From the NCBI GenBank assembly GCA_019119635.1, contig DWWP01000050.1, positions 1-37,058 on the forward strand: DNA of 37,058 bases. The letters run 5' to 3'. The translations under genes were made by a program, and so were the position numbers. The notes below the pieces were generated by a model. It made no database searches and was not told the origin of the DNA. It worked only from the letters and a program-made list of their open reading frames with translations. The DNA comes from Candidatus Dietzia intestinipullorum (GTDB lineage: Bacteria > Actinomycetota > Actinomycetes > Mycobacteriales > Mycobacteriaceae). Shown piece by piece: positions 7,592 through 12,082 of the stretch. Each line of letters opens with the position of its first letter. Within the stretch, counting starts at the first letter, position 1.

Positions 7592-8407
7592 TCAGACCTT
7601 GATGGCGCCCATGTCGACGGTGAAGGTCGACGCCGTGATCGTCCGTGAGGCCTCCGAGGCGAGGAACATGACCGAGTCCGTGATGTCGTCGGTCTTGGCC
7701 ATCCCCATGCCGAGGATCGGCGTGAAGTGCGGCAGGAACTGGGGCATGTTCTCGAAGACGTCGTGTGCGCCCGGGTCCTCGCCACCCATCGGCGTGAGCA
7801 CGCCGTACGGGTGGATGGTGTTGACCCGGATCCGGTGCTCGCCCAGCTCCTTGGCAGCGGTCTGCGCCAGGCCCACGACGCCGTGCTTGGAGGCCGAGTA
7901 CGGCGACTGCACCGGCATGGCCTTGAGTCCGGCCACCGAGCTCACCAGGATGATCGAGCCACCGTTGTCCGCCTCGAGCATGTGCGGGATCGTGGCCTTG
8001 AGGGTCTTCCAGTAGCCGGTGAGGTTGATGTCGAGCGTGTCCTGCCACTGCTGCTCGTCGATCTCCCAGACCCGGCCCCAGTTGCAGATGCCGGCGTTGG
8101 CGATCACCACGTCGAGGCGTCCCCCGAACCGCTCCACGCCGCGCGTGACCAGGTCCTGCTGGAACGCCAGGTCACGGACGTCGCCGACCTCGGCGAGGAT
8201 CTCCCCGCCCTCGGCCTCGACCTTCTCGATGGTCGCGGCGAGGTCTTCCTCGGTCGCGGTCGGGTACCTCACGTACTCCGACGGCGCGGCGCACAGGTCC
8301 ATGCCGATGATCTTGGCGCCCTCGCGGGCGAACCGGATCGCGTGCTTGCGGCCCTGGCCGCGCGCGACGCCCGTGATGTAGACGACCTGGCCGTCGAAAT
8401 CTCCCAT
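7592..8407 (-). CDS. mycofactocin-coupled SDR family oxidoreductase
   Basis: A 271-residue short-chain dehydrogenase. The cofactor motif is TGVARGQG (residues 12-19), the NAG motif is IANAGIC, and the catalytic set is Ser157, Tyr170 and Lys174 (SSVAG and YSASKHG). Between the first two strands it has the extra segment DLCAAPSEYVRYPTATEEDL typical of mycofactocin-coupled SDRs, which keep NAD bound and pass electrons to mycofactocin. It is placed inside the biosynthetic operon, 49 bp after mftD and 5 bp before mftE, which supports co-expression with the cofactor. The alcohol or carbonyl substrate cannot be told from the sequence; carveol-type dehydrogenases are the closest known group. Confidence 0.92.
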   Translation of the reverse strand: MGDFDGQVVYITGVARGQGRKHAIRFAREGAKIIGMDLCAAPSEYVRYPTATEEDLAATIEKVEAEGGEILAEVGDVRDLAFQQDLVTRGVERFGGRLDVVIANAGICNWGRVWEIDEQQWQDTLDINLTGYWKTLKATIPHMLEADNGGSIILVSSVAGLKAMPVQSPYSASKHGVVGLAQTAAKELGEHRIRVNTIHPYGVLTPMGGEDPGAHDVFENMPQFLPHFTPILGMGMAKTDDITDSVMFLASEASRTITASTFTVDMGAIKV

Positions 8408-8456: not shown

Positions 8457-9680
8457 TCACTCGCCGAGGCGGCGGATGAACCCTTCGGGGATGTGGTAAT
8501 CGTCCGGTTTCAACTCGTCGATCGAGGACTTGCCGAGGCCGATCAGGCTCGAGTCCAGCCCGGACCGCATGATGTCGAGGACGTTCTCCACGCCGGCCTG
8601 ACCGTTCGCGCCCAGGCCCCACAGGTATGCGCGTCCGAGCATGACGGCGCGCGCGCCCAGGGCGAGCGCCTTGGCGACGTCGGAGCCACGACGGACGCCA
8701 CCGTCGAGCAGCACCTCCACCCTGTCTCCGACCGCCTCGGCGATCGGGGGGAGGCAACGAATGGTGGCCGGGGTGGCGTCGAGGTTGTTGCCGCCGTGGT
8801 TGGACACCGAGATCGCGGTGACCCCGGCGTCCGCCGCGCGCTTGGCGTCGTCCACACGGGTGATGCCCTTGAGCATCACCGGCCCGTCGTAGTTCTCCAC
8901 CACCCAGGCGATGTCCTCCCAGGTCGGCGGGGGCGTGCCCATCCACTCCCCGTAGGCCCCGAAGAACGTCGGGCCCTGCTCGCCCTCCGCGACGAGGTTC
9001 GGCGTGGACAGGTCCGGGAACTCGCCGGTCTCGAGCACACCCCTGGCCCACTCCATCGTCCACCGTGGGCGGACGGCCAGCTGCGGGGCGAGCGTGACCA
9101 TCGCCTTGAAGTCGAGCTTCTCGGGGATCGCCGGGCTGCCCCAGTCCCGCCCCATCGAGAACGACCAGTCGGTGGTGAGGATGACGCCGGAGGCGCCCGC
9201 GCTCTTGGCCCGCTCGAGTCGTTCGAGCACCTTCTCCTTGCCTCCGAGCCAATACACCTGGAAGAAGGTCTGCGGGTTGGCCGCGACGACCTCCTCGATG
9301 GGCTTGGAGGCGAATGAGCTCAGTCCCATCGCGGTGCCCCGCGCGGCGGCGGCGCGGGCGACGTCGACCTCCCCGTCGGGGGTCACGGCCTGGACCCCGG
9401 TCGGCGAGATCATGACGGGCATGCTGATCGGCTGCCCCATCACGGTGGTCTCGAGCGACCGCTCCGGCTTGGCGCCGATCACGTGCGGCTTGGGTGCCAG
9501 CTCGTTGTAGGCGTCCTGGTTGTCGTCGAGCGTGATGCCGGCCTCGCTCCCGCCGACCAGCGCCATGTAGACGCTCTTGGGCAGCTTCTTCCTGGCGCGT
9601 CGCCGCGCCTCCGCGACGGACTCGAACCAGGGGTTCTGCCGCCAGGGATTGGCCTCGGCGATCGTGGACAGGCGTGACAC
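8457..9680 (-). CDS. mftD: premycofactocin-forming FMN dehydrogenase MftD
   Basis: A 407-residue FMN-dependent alpha-hydroxy-acid dehydrogenase-like protein (lactate dehydrogenase/glycolate oxidase fold). MftD oxidatively deaminates the MftE product to give premycofactocin. Visible motifs are the N-terminal KKLPKSVYMALVGGSEAGIT, the phosphate-binding ISPTGVQAV, the active-site SNHGGNNLDATPAT (His near residue 295) and the FMN-binding LLDGGVRRGSDVAKALALGA. The start is a GTG giving VSRLSTIAEANPW, with GAGGAG six bases upstream. No ATG exists nearby. It follows mftC by 52 bp. Confidence 0.93.
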   Translation of the reverse strand: MSRLSTIAEANPWRQNPWFESVAEARRRARKKLPKSVYMALVGGSEAGITLDDNQDAYNELAPKPHVIGAKPERSLETTVMGQPISMPVMISPTGVQAVTPDGEVDVARAAAARGTAMGLSSFASKPIEEVVAANPQTFFQVYWLGGKEKVLERLERAKSAGASGVILTTDWSFSMGRDWGSPAIPEKLDFKAMVTLAPQLAVRPRWTMEWARGVLETGEFPDLSTPNLVAEGEQGPTFFGAYGEWMGTPPPTWEDIAWVVENYDGPVMLKGITRVDDAKRAADAGVTAISVSNHGGNNLDATPATIRCLPPIAEAVGDRVEVLLDGGVRRGSDVAKALALGARAVMLGRAYLWGLGANGQAGVENVLDIMRSGLDSSLIGLGKSSIDELKPDDYHIPEGFIRRLGE

Positions 9681-9732: not shown

Positions 9733-10965
9733 CTAGATGGGCGACTCGTCGCACAGGCTGGTGGGCCTGCGCGGCGGGGTGGTGACGAGTGTGAGCGGCA
9801 CCGGGCCGGTCGGCTGCTTGCGCGCCGCGAGCCCCATGGGGCGGGTGTGGTCCTGGGACGGCGCGGGGATGTTCCGCTCCGCAGCGAGCAGCCCCTCACC
9901 GAAACCGCGGACACACTCGGGGTCCGGTCCGTCCATCGGCAGTCCGGTGAAGAACTTGGCCGCCATGCAGCCGCCGCGGCAGCTGTCGTAGAAGTCGCAC
10001 GACGCGCAGGCGCCGGCGGACTGGGGTTCCCGCAGCTCACGGAACAACTCGGAGGTCTGCCACACAGTCTCGAAGCCGCCGTCGGCCTCGACGTTCCCGG
10101 CGAGGAACTCCTCGTGGATCGCGAACGGGCACGCGTAGACGTCGCCGATCGGGTCGATCAGGCAGACCACCCGCCCGGCACCACAGAGGTTGAGGCCCGG
10201 AAGCGAGCCCTGCCCCTGGTCGAAGGCGGAGAGGTGGAAGAAACTGTCGCCGGTGAGGACGTCGGAGCCGTGTGCGACCAGCCAGTCGTACAGGTCGCGC
10301 TGCTGCTCCGGCAGCGGGTGCAGGTCGTCCCACACGTCGGCGCCTCGGCCGGACGGGCGGAGCCTCGTGATGCGCAGGGTGGCGTCATAGCGGTCCGCCA
10401 GCGCCTTGAACTCGTCGAGCTGCGAGATGTTCTCGCGCGTCATCACCACGGAGATCTTGGCGTCGGTGAAGCCCGCGTTCTGGAGGTTCTCCAGCGCGCG
10501 CACCGCCATGTCGAACGACCCCGGCCCGCGGACCGCGTCGTTGACGTCGGCCGTAGCGCCGTCGAGCGAGATCTGGACGTCCACGTAGTCGCTCGCGGCC
10601 AGCCGCTGCGCCACCTCCTCGTCGAGCCGGACGCCGTTGGTGGAGAACTTGACCCCCACCTGGTGGCTCGTCGCGTAGTCGACGAGCTCCCAGAAATCGG
10701 GACGGACGGTGGGCTCGCCGCCGCCGATGTTGACGTAGAAGACCTGCATCTTCTGCAGTTCGTCGATGATCGCCTTGCACTGCTCCGTGCTCAACTCGCG
10801 GGGATCGCGTCTCCCGGAGGAGCTCAGGCAGTGCACACAGGCGAGGTTGCAGGCGTAGGTGAGCTCCCACGTCAGGCAGATGGGGGCGTCCAGGCCGCGC
10901 TCGAACTGGTCGACGAGGCGCCCGACCGGGGCGGGGCTGGAGGGCGCGGACAGCGTGCTGGTCAT
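9733..10965 (-). CDS. mftC: mycofactocin radical SAM maturase MftC
   Basis: A 410-residue radical SAM enzyme that acts on the C-terminal Val-Tyr of MftA, decarboxylating the tyrosine and then cross-linking it to the valine. The radical SAM cluster motif is C39-x3-C43-x2-C46 (CNLACVHC). GGGEPT and the ISLDGATADVND strand follow. The C-terminal SPASM domain has cysteines in NLCGAGR, YACPF and CASCDFYDSCRGGC for auxiliary Fe-S clusters. A proline-rich tail of about 45 residues ends the protein. The ATG overlaps the mftB stop as ATGA, so the precursor-binding partner and the enzyme are translationally coupled. Confidence 0.96.
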   Translation of the reverse strand: MTSTLSAPSSPAPVGRLVDQFERGLDAPICLTWELTYACNLACVHCLSSSGRRDPRELSTEQCKAIIDELQKMQVFYVNIGGGEPTVRPDFWELVDYATSHQVGVKFSTNGVRLDEEVAQRLAASDYVDVQISLDGATADVNDAVRGPGSFDMAVRALENLQNAGFTDAKISVVMTRENISQLDEFKALADRYDATLRITRLRPSGRGADVWDDLHPLPEQQRDLYDWLVAHGSDVLTGDSFFHLSAFDQGQGSLPGLNLCGAGRVVCLIDPIGDVYACPFAIHEEFLAGNVEADGGFETVWQTSELFRELREPQSAGACASCDFYDSCRGGCMAAKFFTGLPMDGPDPECVRGFGEGLLAAERNIPAPSQDHTRPMGLAARKQPTGPVPLTLVTTPPRRPTSLCDESPI

Positions 10966-11288
10966 GGGGTCTCCTCGATCATGCGCGACGCGGCGAGCGC
11001 GCCGAGCGCATGCAGGTACAGGCGCGCCGTGGCCGGGTCCTCGATGGACACCCCGACGGCGGCGCAGGCTTCTCTGGCGGTGGCGTGGTCCGCGAGGGAG
11101 CGGACCACCTCGACGATGGTCGGCGACTTGAGAAAGCTGAGCTTTCGCGTGTGGAAGTGGTAGAGCAGGGCCCCGAACGGCTCGGGGCGAAGCGCCACCG
11201 AAGGGTGCAGACGCCAGCCGGCGTCGAGGTCGAATTCCGCCGGGGCGGCACTCTGCTCGGCGCCGGCCGGCGCTGCTGCGGAACCCAT
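10962..11288 (-). CDS. mftB: mycofactocin biosynthesis chaperone MftB
   Basis: A 108-residue PqqD-like peptide chaperone that binds the MftA leader and presents it to MftC. The family pattern is visible in FDLDAGWRLHPSVALRPEPF, followed by GALLYHFHTRKLSFLKSP and the helical C-terminus. The first 18 residues are Ala/Gly-rich. The start at ATG 11288 is only 2 bp downstream of the mftA stop, so mftA, mftB and mftC form a tightly coupled unit. Its stop overlaps mftC. Confidence 0.94.
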   Translation of the reverse strand: MGSAAAPAGAEQSAAPAEFDLDAGWRLHPSVALRPEPFGALLYHFHTRKLSFLKSPTIVEVVRSLADHATAREACAAVGVSIEDPATARLYLHALGALAASRMIEETP

Positions 11289-11290
11289 TC

Positions 11291-11377
11291 TCAGTAGACC
11301 CCGCACATTCCGTCGATCGAGACCTCCTCGATGAGGGCCTCCTCCAGCACGACGTCGGTGTCCTGCGTGTTCTCCAT
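11291..11377 (-). CDS. mftA: mycofactocin precursor peptide MftA
   Basis: A 28-codon gene that is too short for most gene finders. It begins MENTQDTDVV, continues with an acidic leader (LEEALIEEVS) and ends in the diagnostic core IDGMCGVY followed by TGA. The C-terminal Val-Tyr is the part converted into the redox cofactor; the acidic leader is the MftB recognition region. A GAGGA Shine-Dalgarno stands just before the ATG (11377). It is the first gene of the mft operon, 2 bp ahead of mftB, and has a promoter with a MftR-type operator about 55-80 bp upstream. Confidence 0.97.
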   Translation of the reverse strand: MENTQDTDVVLEEALIEEVSIDGMCGVY

Positions 11378-11430
11378 GGCGATTCCTCTCGTCAGCGCAC
11401 CTGGATGTCCCACCGTCCGGTGAGACCCAC

Positions 11431-11459
11431 ATCATATTGGCACTTGGTGCCAATAGCAA
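11431..11459 (-). promoter_or_regulatory. mftA promoter with an inverted-repeat operator in its spacer
   Basis: On the minus strand, TTGCTA (11459-11454) and TATGAT (11436-11431) are separated by 17 bp, a good sigma-70-type promoter. The spacer is filled by the inverted repeat with arms TATTGGCAC and GTGCCAATA around TTG (11435-11455, no mismatch). It lies in the 108-bp region between the divergent mftA and mftR genes. The predicted start of transcription near 11424 would give a leader of about 46 bases. The MftR repressor is the obvious candidate to bind the repeat; that step is inferred. Confidence 0.8.
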
Positions 11460-11472
11460 TGGCCCCGTGCTC

Positions 11473-11478
11473 TACGCT
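11473..11478 (+). promoter_or_regulatory. -10 element for leaderless mftR
   Basis: TACGCT lies 7 bases upstream of the mftR ATG (11486) and there is no Shine-Dalgarno sequence between them. This fits the leaderless pattern common in Mycobacteriales (TANNNT about 7 bases from the start codon). A -35 region would overlap the right arm of the 11435-11455 inverted repeat, so one bound repressor could shut off both directions. Confidence 0.5.
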
Positions 11479-11485
11479 CGGTGTC

Positions 11486-12082
11486 ATGGGAATCGTGGAG
11501 ACGGCCGAGGGGCGGGTCCCGGGGCGTCGCCCCTCCACGACGCACGCGACGATCGTGGGCGTGGCCCTCGACCTCTTCGCGCGCAACGGCTACGAGGCGA
11601 CGAGCGTCGACCAGATCGCCGAGGCCGCCGACATCTCCCGCCGCACGCTCTTCCGCTACTTCCCCGGCAAGGCCGCGATCGCGTGGGGCGAGTTCGACGT
11701 GCAGATCGACGGAATGCGGCGGCGCCTCGCGGACATCCCGGCGGAAACCCCGCTGCGGGAGGCCCTCGCCGACGCCCTGGTCGCGTTCAACACCTTCCCC
11801 GATTCCGAGACCGAGGTGCACCGTCGGCGGATGCGCCTACTGCTGAGCGTCGACGAGCTCAGGGCCCACTCCACCCTGATGTACGCGGACTGGAGCTCCG
11901 CCGTCGCCGAGTTCGTCGCGGCCCGCTCCGGCGAGTCCGAGGAGGGCCTGCTGCCCGCCGCGGTCGCGCACGCGGCGCTCGGCATCGCACTGTCGGCCTA
12001 TCGCCTCTGGGTCGCGGAGCCGGACGCCGACCAGCCCCGGCTGCACGCGCTGCTGCGCGAGGGCACACAGATCCTCGCGTGA
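11486..12082 (+). CDS. mftR: TetR-family regulator of the mycofactocin cluster, MftR
   Basis: A 198-residue TetR repressor. The N-terminal DNA-binding domain spans about 20-65, with ALDLFARNGYEATSVDQIAE leading into the helix-turn-helix AADISRRTLFRYFPGKAAI. The rest is the helical ligand-binding domain. MftR in mycobacteria is reported to repress the mft genes and to respond to long-chain acyl-CoA. Position supports this identity: it is divergent from mftA, with a perfect inverted repeat between the two. The ATG at 11486 lacks a Shine-Dalgarno but has a -10 seven bases upstream, so I infer a leaderless message; the open frame extends to 11405 but crosses the operator. Confidence 0.92.
   Translation: MGIVETAEGRVPGRRPSTTHATIVGVALDLFARNGYEATSVDQIAEAADISRRTLFRYFPGKAAIAWGEFDVQIDGMRRRLADIPAETPLREALADALVAFNTFPDSETEVHRRRMRLLLSVDELRAHSTLMYADWSSAVAEFVAARSGESEEGLLPAAVAHAALGIALSAYRLWVAEPDADQPRLHALLREGTQILA

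Follow-up and report, generated by a model that had tools for sequence, protein, structure and literature searches.

Between mftA and the divergent mftR gene of Candidatus Dietzia intestinipullorum lies a 108-bp interval that contains a perfect palindrome, and the question raised by this locus is which protein the palindrome serves and which of the two genes it controls. The window, by which we mean the whole stretch of 37,058 nucleotides that was analysed, carries the following genes, and the products MftA, MftB, MftC, MftD, the SDR oxidoreductase and MftR all scored above their NCBIfam cut-offs.

7592..8407, minus strand: mycofactocin-coupled SDR oxidoreductase (TIGR03971, 338.9 bits, cut-off 300)
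8457..9665, minus strand: mftD, pre-mycofactocin synthase, given without a set start codon (TIGR03966, 666 bits, cut-off 470.85)
9733..10965, minus strand: mftC, radical SAM maturase (TIGR03962, 647.8 bits, cut-off 265)
10962..11288, minus strand: mftB, start codon picked by eye (TIGR03967, 104.4 bits, cut-off 33)
11291..11377, minus strand: mftA, mycofactocin precursor peptide of 28 aa, ATG at 11377 (TIGR03969, 49.4 bits, cut-off 25)
11486..12082, plus strand: mftR, TetR-family repressor, ATG at 11486 (TIGR03968, 232.7 bits, cut-off 224.9)

The nearest relatives of MftC among named records were four Dietzia proteins (91-93%) and one labelled Tsukamurella (92%). Two loci, L127 (labelled Tsukamurella spumae) and L133 (labelled Kitasatospora arboriphila), have sequence upstream of mft that resembles Dietzia and Williamsia, and this mismatch with their labels could reflect transfer, contamination or a wrong label.

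When we scanned positions 11280-11600 for sigma-70-like promoters by pattern, the sole match was the minus-strand TTGCTA-17-TATGAT (11459-11431; shuffle mean 0.0, n = 50), and the mftA transcription start would be expected near 11424-11425. The palindrome occupies 11435-11455 and consists of TATTGGCAC (11435-11443), a TTG centre and GTGCCAATA (11447-11455), the arms being 100% complementary. On the minus strand, the spacer of the mftA promoter reads TTGGCAC-CAA-GTGCCAA, and two bases from each hexamer lengthen the arms to 9 bp. The elements are as follows.

11454..11459, minus strand: mftA -35 hexamer TTGCTA, from the promoter scan and conservation in Dietzia
11435..11455, no strand assigned: predicted MftR operator, a perfect 9+3+9 palindrome with the conserved core TGGCAC-N3-GTGCCA at 11438-11452
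11431..11436, minus strand: mftA -10 hexamer TATGAT, from the promoter scan and the family-wide -10 spacing

An earlier note on this DNA had described a minus-strand promoter, TTGCTA-17 bp-TATGAT, that encloses a repeat with 9-bp arms and a 3-bp centre, and both the sequence and the coordinates were right. It had also equated the 17-bp spacer with a perfect half-site pair. The palindrome itself is real, but at 21 bp it is longer than the spacer and overlaps each hexamer by 2 bp, and its 9-bp symmetry is found in one of 23 Dietzia genomes.

How far does symmetry by itself distinguish this site? When the 108-bp intergenic region was shuffled 20,000 times with dinucleotides preserved, a 9-bp inverted repeat with any loop of 0-12 appeared in 64, and one with a loop of 3 in three. 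The whole GC-rich 37-kb window, on the other hand, contains 18 inverted repeats of 9 bp (nested ones included), against 3 to 21 in five shuffles. Since such repeats are not rare across the window, the weight of the argument is carried by position and conservation, and not by palindromy alone. The 18-base operator pattern with up to three mismatches has a single occurrence in the window, and TTGGCAC-N3-GTGCCAA is found exactly at one place in the genome assembly (65 contigs, 95% complete).

The position of the palindrome can be compared with an operator established in Mycobacterium. According to the available part of PMC8728441 (Mendauletova and Latham 2021), a DNase I footprint of M. smegmatis MftR (MSMEG_1420) extends from -79 to -53 relative to mftA, and 83 mycobacterial sequences give the consensus T-N2-GGCA-N5-TGCC-N2-A. 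Counted from the mftA ATG at 11377, this footprint maps onto 11456-11430, with the whole palindrome inside it, and the core GGCA-N5-TGCC is present at 11439-11451 on the plus strand (GGCACTTGGTGCC). At the outer positions, where the Mycobacterium consensus in that part of the paper has T and A, the sequence here differs and reads A-TT-GGCA ... TGCC-AA-T. The same source reports that MftR overexpression lowers mft transcripts in M. smegmatis and that long-chain acyl-CoA frees MftR from its operator, a result that PMC11778925 repeats in the portion available. It also describes as perplexing that the response to oleate is delayed and does not depend on dose, so that the inducer logic is incompletely understood.

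Based on these observations, we suggest that the palindrome is very probably the Dietzia MftR operator, whose occupation by an MftR dimer would block the mftA promoter and from which long-chain acyl-CoA would release the protein. In detail, the dimer would sit on TGGCAC-N3-GTGCCA in the 17-bp spacer and exclude RNA polymerase from both the -35 and the -10 hexamer, steric block being the most likely mechanism. Long-chain acyl-CoA would then free MftR and allow the mft operon to be transcribed in Dietzia, by extension from M. smegmatis. From the same site MftR may repress mftR too.

The earlier note had proposed that absence of the repeat from close relatives would refute its reading, and this comparison was run. 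MftA is present in all 23 Dietzia genomes searched, the genome of the window included, and in every one of the 23 mftA loci TGGCA[CT]-N3-GTG[CT]CA stands immediately 5' of AATATGAT, so that neither the core nor its position next to the -10 has been lost in any of them, and the reading was not refuted. Both arms of the core are intact in 16 of these loci, while one arm base is altered in the other 7. Measured outward from the centre, the arms reach 9 bp in the genome of the window only, 8 bp in three genomes, 6 bp in 12 and less in 7. In 22 of the 23, a TTGnnn -35 precedes the -10 at a spacing of 17 bp.

These numbers bear on the idea that the symmetry is a by-product of the promoter hexamers and marks no protein site. 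The outermost arm bases do coincide with the -35 and the -10, and the full 9-bp symmetry is confined to one Dietzia genome in 23, as this idea would have it; but the inner bases match no promoter consensus, and yet the core recurs in 23 of 24 genera at a near-fixed distance from the -10. We therefore give this idea hardly any credence, and the reading as an MftR operator was examined across the family.

For this we used a set of 122 mftA loci from 24 genera (L001-L122, that of the window included), comprising 23 from Dietzia, 30 best-scoring, 29 more and 40 picked by genus. The set is a sample chosen for genus coverage and not at random, one family search having matched in 244 of 301 genomes. 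A relaxed core, [GT]GCAC-N3-[GA]TG[CT]C matched at 9 or more of its 10 positions, was found in 95 of 96 loci with a divergent mftR (counted if no more than 900 bp away) and in 9 of the 26 that had none, against 317 of 6100 composition-shuffled upstream regions. In a further set of 79 named records (80 were fetched, and one had no readable mftA), the corresponding counts were 60 of 60 and 8 of 19. Because the relaxed consensus was adjusted on the very loci counted, and related genomes are not independent, more weight belongs to the contrast between loci with and without mftR than to the raw rate. The comparison of the mftA-mftR interval across the family, which had been put forward as a check, thus found the core nearly always kept where mftR adjoins.

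The core is present in 23 of the 24 genera, in nearly all of their loci, with g21 (2 of 11) and g23 (1 of 4) as exceptions. Among 105 loci of the 122-locus set, a TAnnnT began downstream of the core at a distance of 2 nt in 79, 1 nt in 19 (including all 17 g28 loci) and 3 nt in one, and none was found in six. A -10 at near-fixed spacing from the core across the family indicates that the overlap of operator and promoter is general and no peculiarity of Dietzia. The cognate MftR encoded beside the Dietzia operator has kept the recognition-helix stretch; RRT[LFV]FRY is present in 15 of the 17 MftR proteins compared, including those of Dietzia, Mycobacterium, Rhodococcus and Gordonia. Two of the three g21 MftR proteins compared deviate from RRT in this helix, and the only locus that has mftR and lacks the relaxed core, L114, is from g21 and has GTCAC-N3-GTGAC. 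In all eight Nocardia loci of the 79-locus set (L183, L186, L188, L190, L195, L196, L199 and L200) and in six further g21 loci (L032, L036, L051, L115, L117 and L118), GTCAGNNNATGAC before GTTATNGTG replaces the usual core, and no mftR was found beside mftA in any of the 14. As a side reading, this element may be a diverged or replaced operator.

The same counts are relevant to the possibility that the palindrome belongs to a regulator other than MftR. MftR binding in Dietzia is a prediction, and the site is kept without an adjacent mftR in the minority of loci given above; some of these may have mftR elsewhere, as L018 ends at a contig edge and L091 has a match 1.3 kb away. Against another regulator stand the M. 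smegmatis footprint, described in the available part of PMC8728441, on the corresponding site and the near-universal presence of the site where mftR is adjacent. We consider a different regulator very unlikely, and the claim that this palindrome is the MftR operator of the lineage is supported by its position, its core, the adjacent mftR, its conservation and the M. smegmatis footprint.

We then considered whether the same site controls mftR. The relevant element in the window is the following.

11473..11478, plus strand: TACGCT, candidate -10 of an mftR promoter with no leader or almost none, from pattern and position before the ATG

The earlier note had placed the right arm of the palindrome where the -35 of mftR would be. 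Assuming a 17-nt spacer, the position (11450-11455) is as proposed, but the letters there, CCAATA, resemble no -35, and no recognisable mftR -35 consensus was found at the expected place. A pattern search made without a control looked for a candidate mftR -10 (TAnnnT just 5' of the start codon) in 22 Dietzia loci; its distance from the operator core was 19-20 nt in 14 of them, 40 nt in five and 69 nt in two, and in one none was found. Since mftR has no recognisable -35, the proposal of one repressor for both directions relies on spacing. In the two 69-nt loci, L008 and L009, the mftR -10 is preceded, at a distance of 19 nt, by the end of a second palindrome, TGGCAC-TAC-GTGCCG (11 of 12 arm positions), as expected if an operator at such a distance matters for mftR; this is a hint of mftR control from two loci that are closely alike. 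No second copy was seen in the five 40-nt loci.

Control of mftR from the same site as mftA thus appears plausible. The alternative is that the operator controls mftA only and that mftR has an independent promoter with no autoregulation, which would agree with the missing -35 and with the 40-nt spacing in five loci. It accords less well with the 19-20 nt spacing of the majority and with the second copy before the shifted -10 of L008 and L009, and a footprint over 11430-11456 would span the mftR -35 region. We hold this alternative to be a serious if tentative possibility. A second palindrome, GGCAC-GTA-GTGCC, some 50 bp further upstream than the mftA operator, is present in L125 and L126 as well as in L008 and L009, where it is the copy 19 nt from the mftR -10.

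Downstream of the operator, a further element is predicted where the mft transcript is expected to begin.

11407..11426, minus strand: hairpin predicted in the 5' end of the mft RNA, GTCTCACC / GGTGGGAC, 8 pairs, modestly supported

A predicted hairpin of about 6-11 pairs with a variable loop is present at this place in the Dietzia leaders (L001-L022), where the fold energy relative to shuffles was modest (mean z of -1.8 over 22 distinct leaders). The pairing test used 17 of 22 leaders and left out L004, L014 and L015, which are near those kept, as well as L023, which had been folded from an earlier TATGAT and hence from the wrong stretch, and L127 (labelled Tsukamurella), whose best fold is a different hairpin. 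In the alignment, 92.2% of cells pair, against 39-54% with the partner strand slid. Because five of the nine pairs are invariant, 70 of 500 shuffles equalled the observed pairing, and the covariation support for the hairpin is weak.

At 60 of 79 non-Dietzia loci (for example L045, L028 and L102), the motif GTGA-N6-TCAC with at least 7 of 8 positions, which we take to be CRP/GlxR-like, was found downstream of the mftA -10, mostly 8-9 nt past the operator core. It was present in 2 of 23 Dietzia loci and in 66 of 5100 shuffles. This distribution points to another input on the mft promoter, of cAMP type, which is missing in Dietzia. The Dietzia hairpin is located near the place of the CRP-like site in other genera.

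Does MftR have targets beyond the mft locus? In the genome of the window, a search with up to three mismatches gave 45 sites against 68 for a reversed control, and this offers no support for a wider regulon there. When we searched the 23 Dietzia genomes for the exact core TGGCAC-N3-GTGCCA, 37 places were found, compared with 12 for the reversed control: 16 at mftA, 18 between kshA and hsaA, and three elsewhere (one each in G001, G020 and G022). The G020 site, inside a reading frame, and that of G022 were attributed to chance. Another site in G022, L319, precedes a CydA-like frame, named by eye.

The kshA-hsaA site was identified at locus L245, which encodes divergent KshA (best PDB match 2zyl, a 3-ketosteroid 9-alpha-monooxygenase, E 1.7e-167) and HsaA (NF045629, 647.5 bits, cut-off 450). 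Among the hsaA loci of the 23 Dietzia genomes (L256-L278), the element matches at 11 or more of the 12 arm positions in 21 genomes, at all 12 in 18, and is absent from G017 and G022. In the genome of the window (G000:C52, at about 29.6 kb) it reads TGGCACGCGGTGGCA, with 11 of 12 arm positions; a GTGTCA right arm occurs there in G002 and G020, and the same variant is found at mftA in five genomes. When the 21 loci were aligned, the arms were 98.8% conserved with 11 of 12 columns invariant, and the 3-bp centre was 76% conserved. The flanking AACnnGTT boxes before hsaA and kshA, which we presume to be KstR-type, reached 98.5%, and the other columns 74.7%; as 19 of these 74 columns were invariant, the region has further conserved blocks. 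Of 31 genomes of other genera queried, 24 yielded an hsaA locus (19 genera); the roughly 400 bp upstream of hsaA lacked the core in every one of them, while AACnnGTT boxes were present there in all 24.

The element looks like a Dietzia-specific operator with the sequence of that of MftR. From sequence, we regard as evenly balanced the proposal that MftR of Dietzia has been recruited to the divergent kshA-hsaA promoter, which would couple steroid ring degradation to the acyl-CoA signal for mycofactocin synthesis. The case is made by conservation and not by counts.

A near-match elsewhere advises caution. TGGCAC-GTA-GTGTCA (TGGCACGTAGTGTCA) is present in 13 Dietzia genomes and stands directly before a tRNA-Met gene in all 12 loci viewed (L303, L305 and L308-L317), the 13th, L306, ending at a contig edge. 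Its centre is invariant and it contains a -10-like TAGTGT, and on these grounds we counted it as promoter sequence and not as a third MftR site. Near-matches may accordingly be conserved for other reasons, and the kshA-hsaA element should be read with this in mind, since its 21 genomes share ancestry and MftR control would be unexpected at the tRNA-Met promoter.

As far as the accessible part of PMC6529628 goes, the requirement of mycobacteria for mft genes during growth on cholesterol was traced to the ethanol solvent, and kshA and hsaA were raised in an M. tuberculosis mftC mutant given cholesterol in ethanol compared with the untreated state, a rise for which ordinary steroid induction would account. 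Through the kshA-hsaA element, the disputed relation of mycofactocin to steroid catabolism can be tested directly in Dietzia, and a direct regulatory link there, if true, would support the connection with evidence of a new kind.

An operator of this kind is already known from M. smegmatis, as the available part of the 2021 paper describes, and is not new. The present analysis extends the predicted MftR operator from Mycobacterium to most sampled mycofactocin-bearing genera of the family and locates it inside the promoter, and this location makes the regulation testable outside mycobacteria. Among the matches listed in a literature search by titles and abstract openings (mycofactocin, MftR, Rv0691c and Dietzia regulators), no MftR operator outside Mycobacterium and none at kshA-hsaA was found, nor did this search yield MftR binding or transcription-start data for Dietzia. 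The portion of PMC6398593 available gives about 50 predicted Rv0691c targets, spread over no single pathway.

With the KstR-type boxes, the TGGCAC-N3-GTGCCA element shares the kshA-hsaA intergenic region of Dietzia as a separate site. The arrangement at mftA resembles the divergent TetR-family operators of Balhana et al. 2015 (PMC4482099) in that a short palindrome lies between a TetR-family gene and its divergent target, but the sequence here is particular to MftR, and among the motifs listed in the available part of that paper none is for Rv0691c. The Dietzia -10 begins 2 nt past the core, compared with 1 nt in g28, and the available part of PMC8728441 gives no transcription start or promoter hexamers. 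Compared with Omft of M. smegmatis as described there, the Dietzia site has the same GGCA-N5-TGCC core, the same place within -79 to -53, the same location 5' of the mft operon and an MftR-type TetR repressor, while its core is more symmetric (TGGCAC-N3-GTGCCA) and dispenses with the outer T and A of the consensus.
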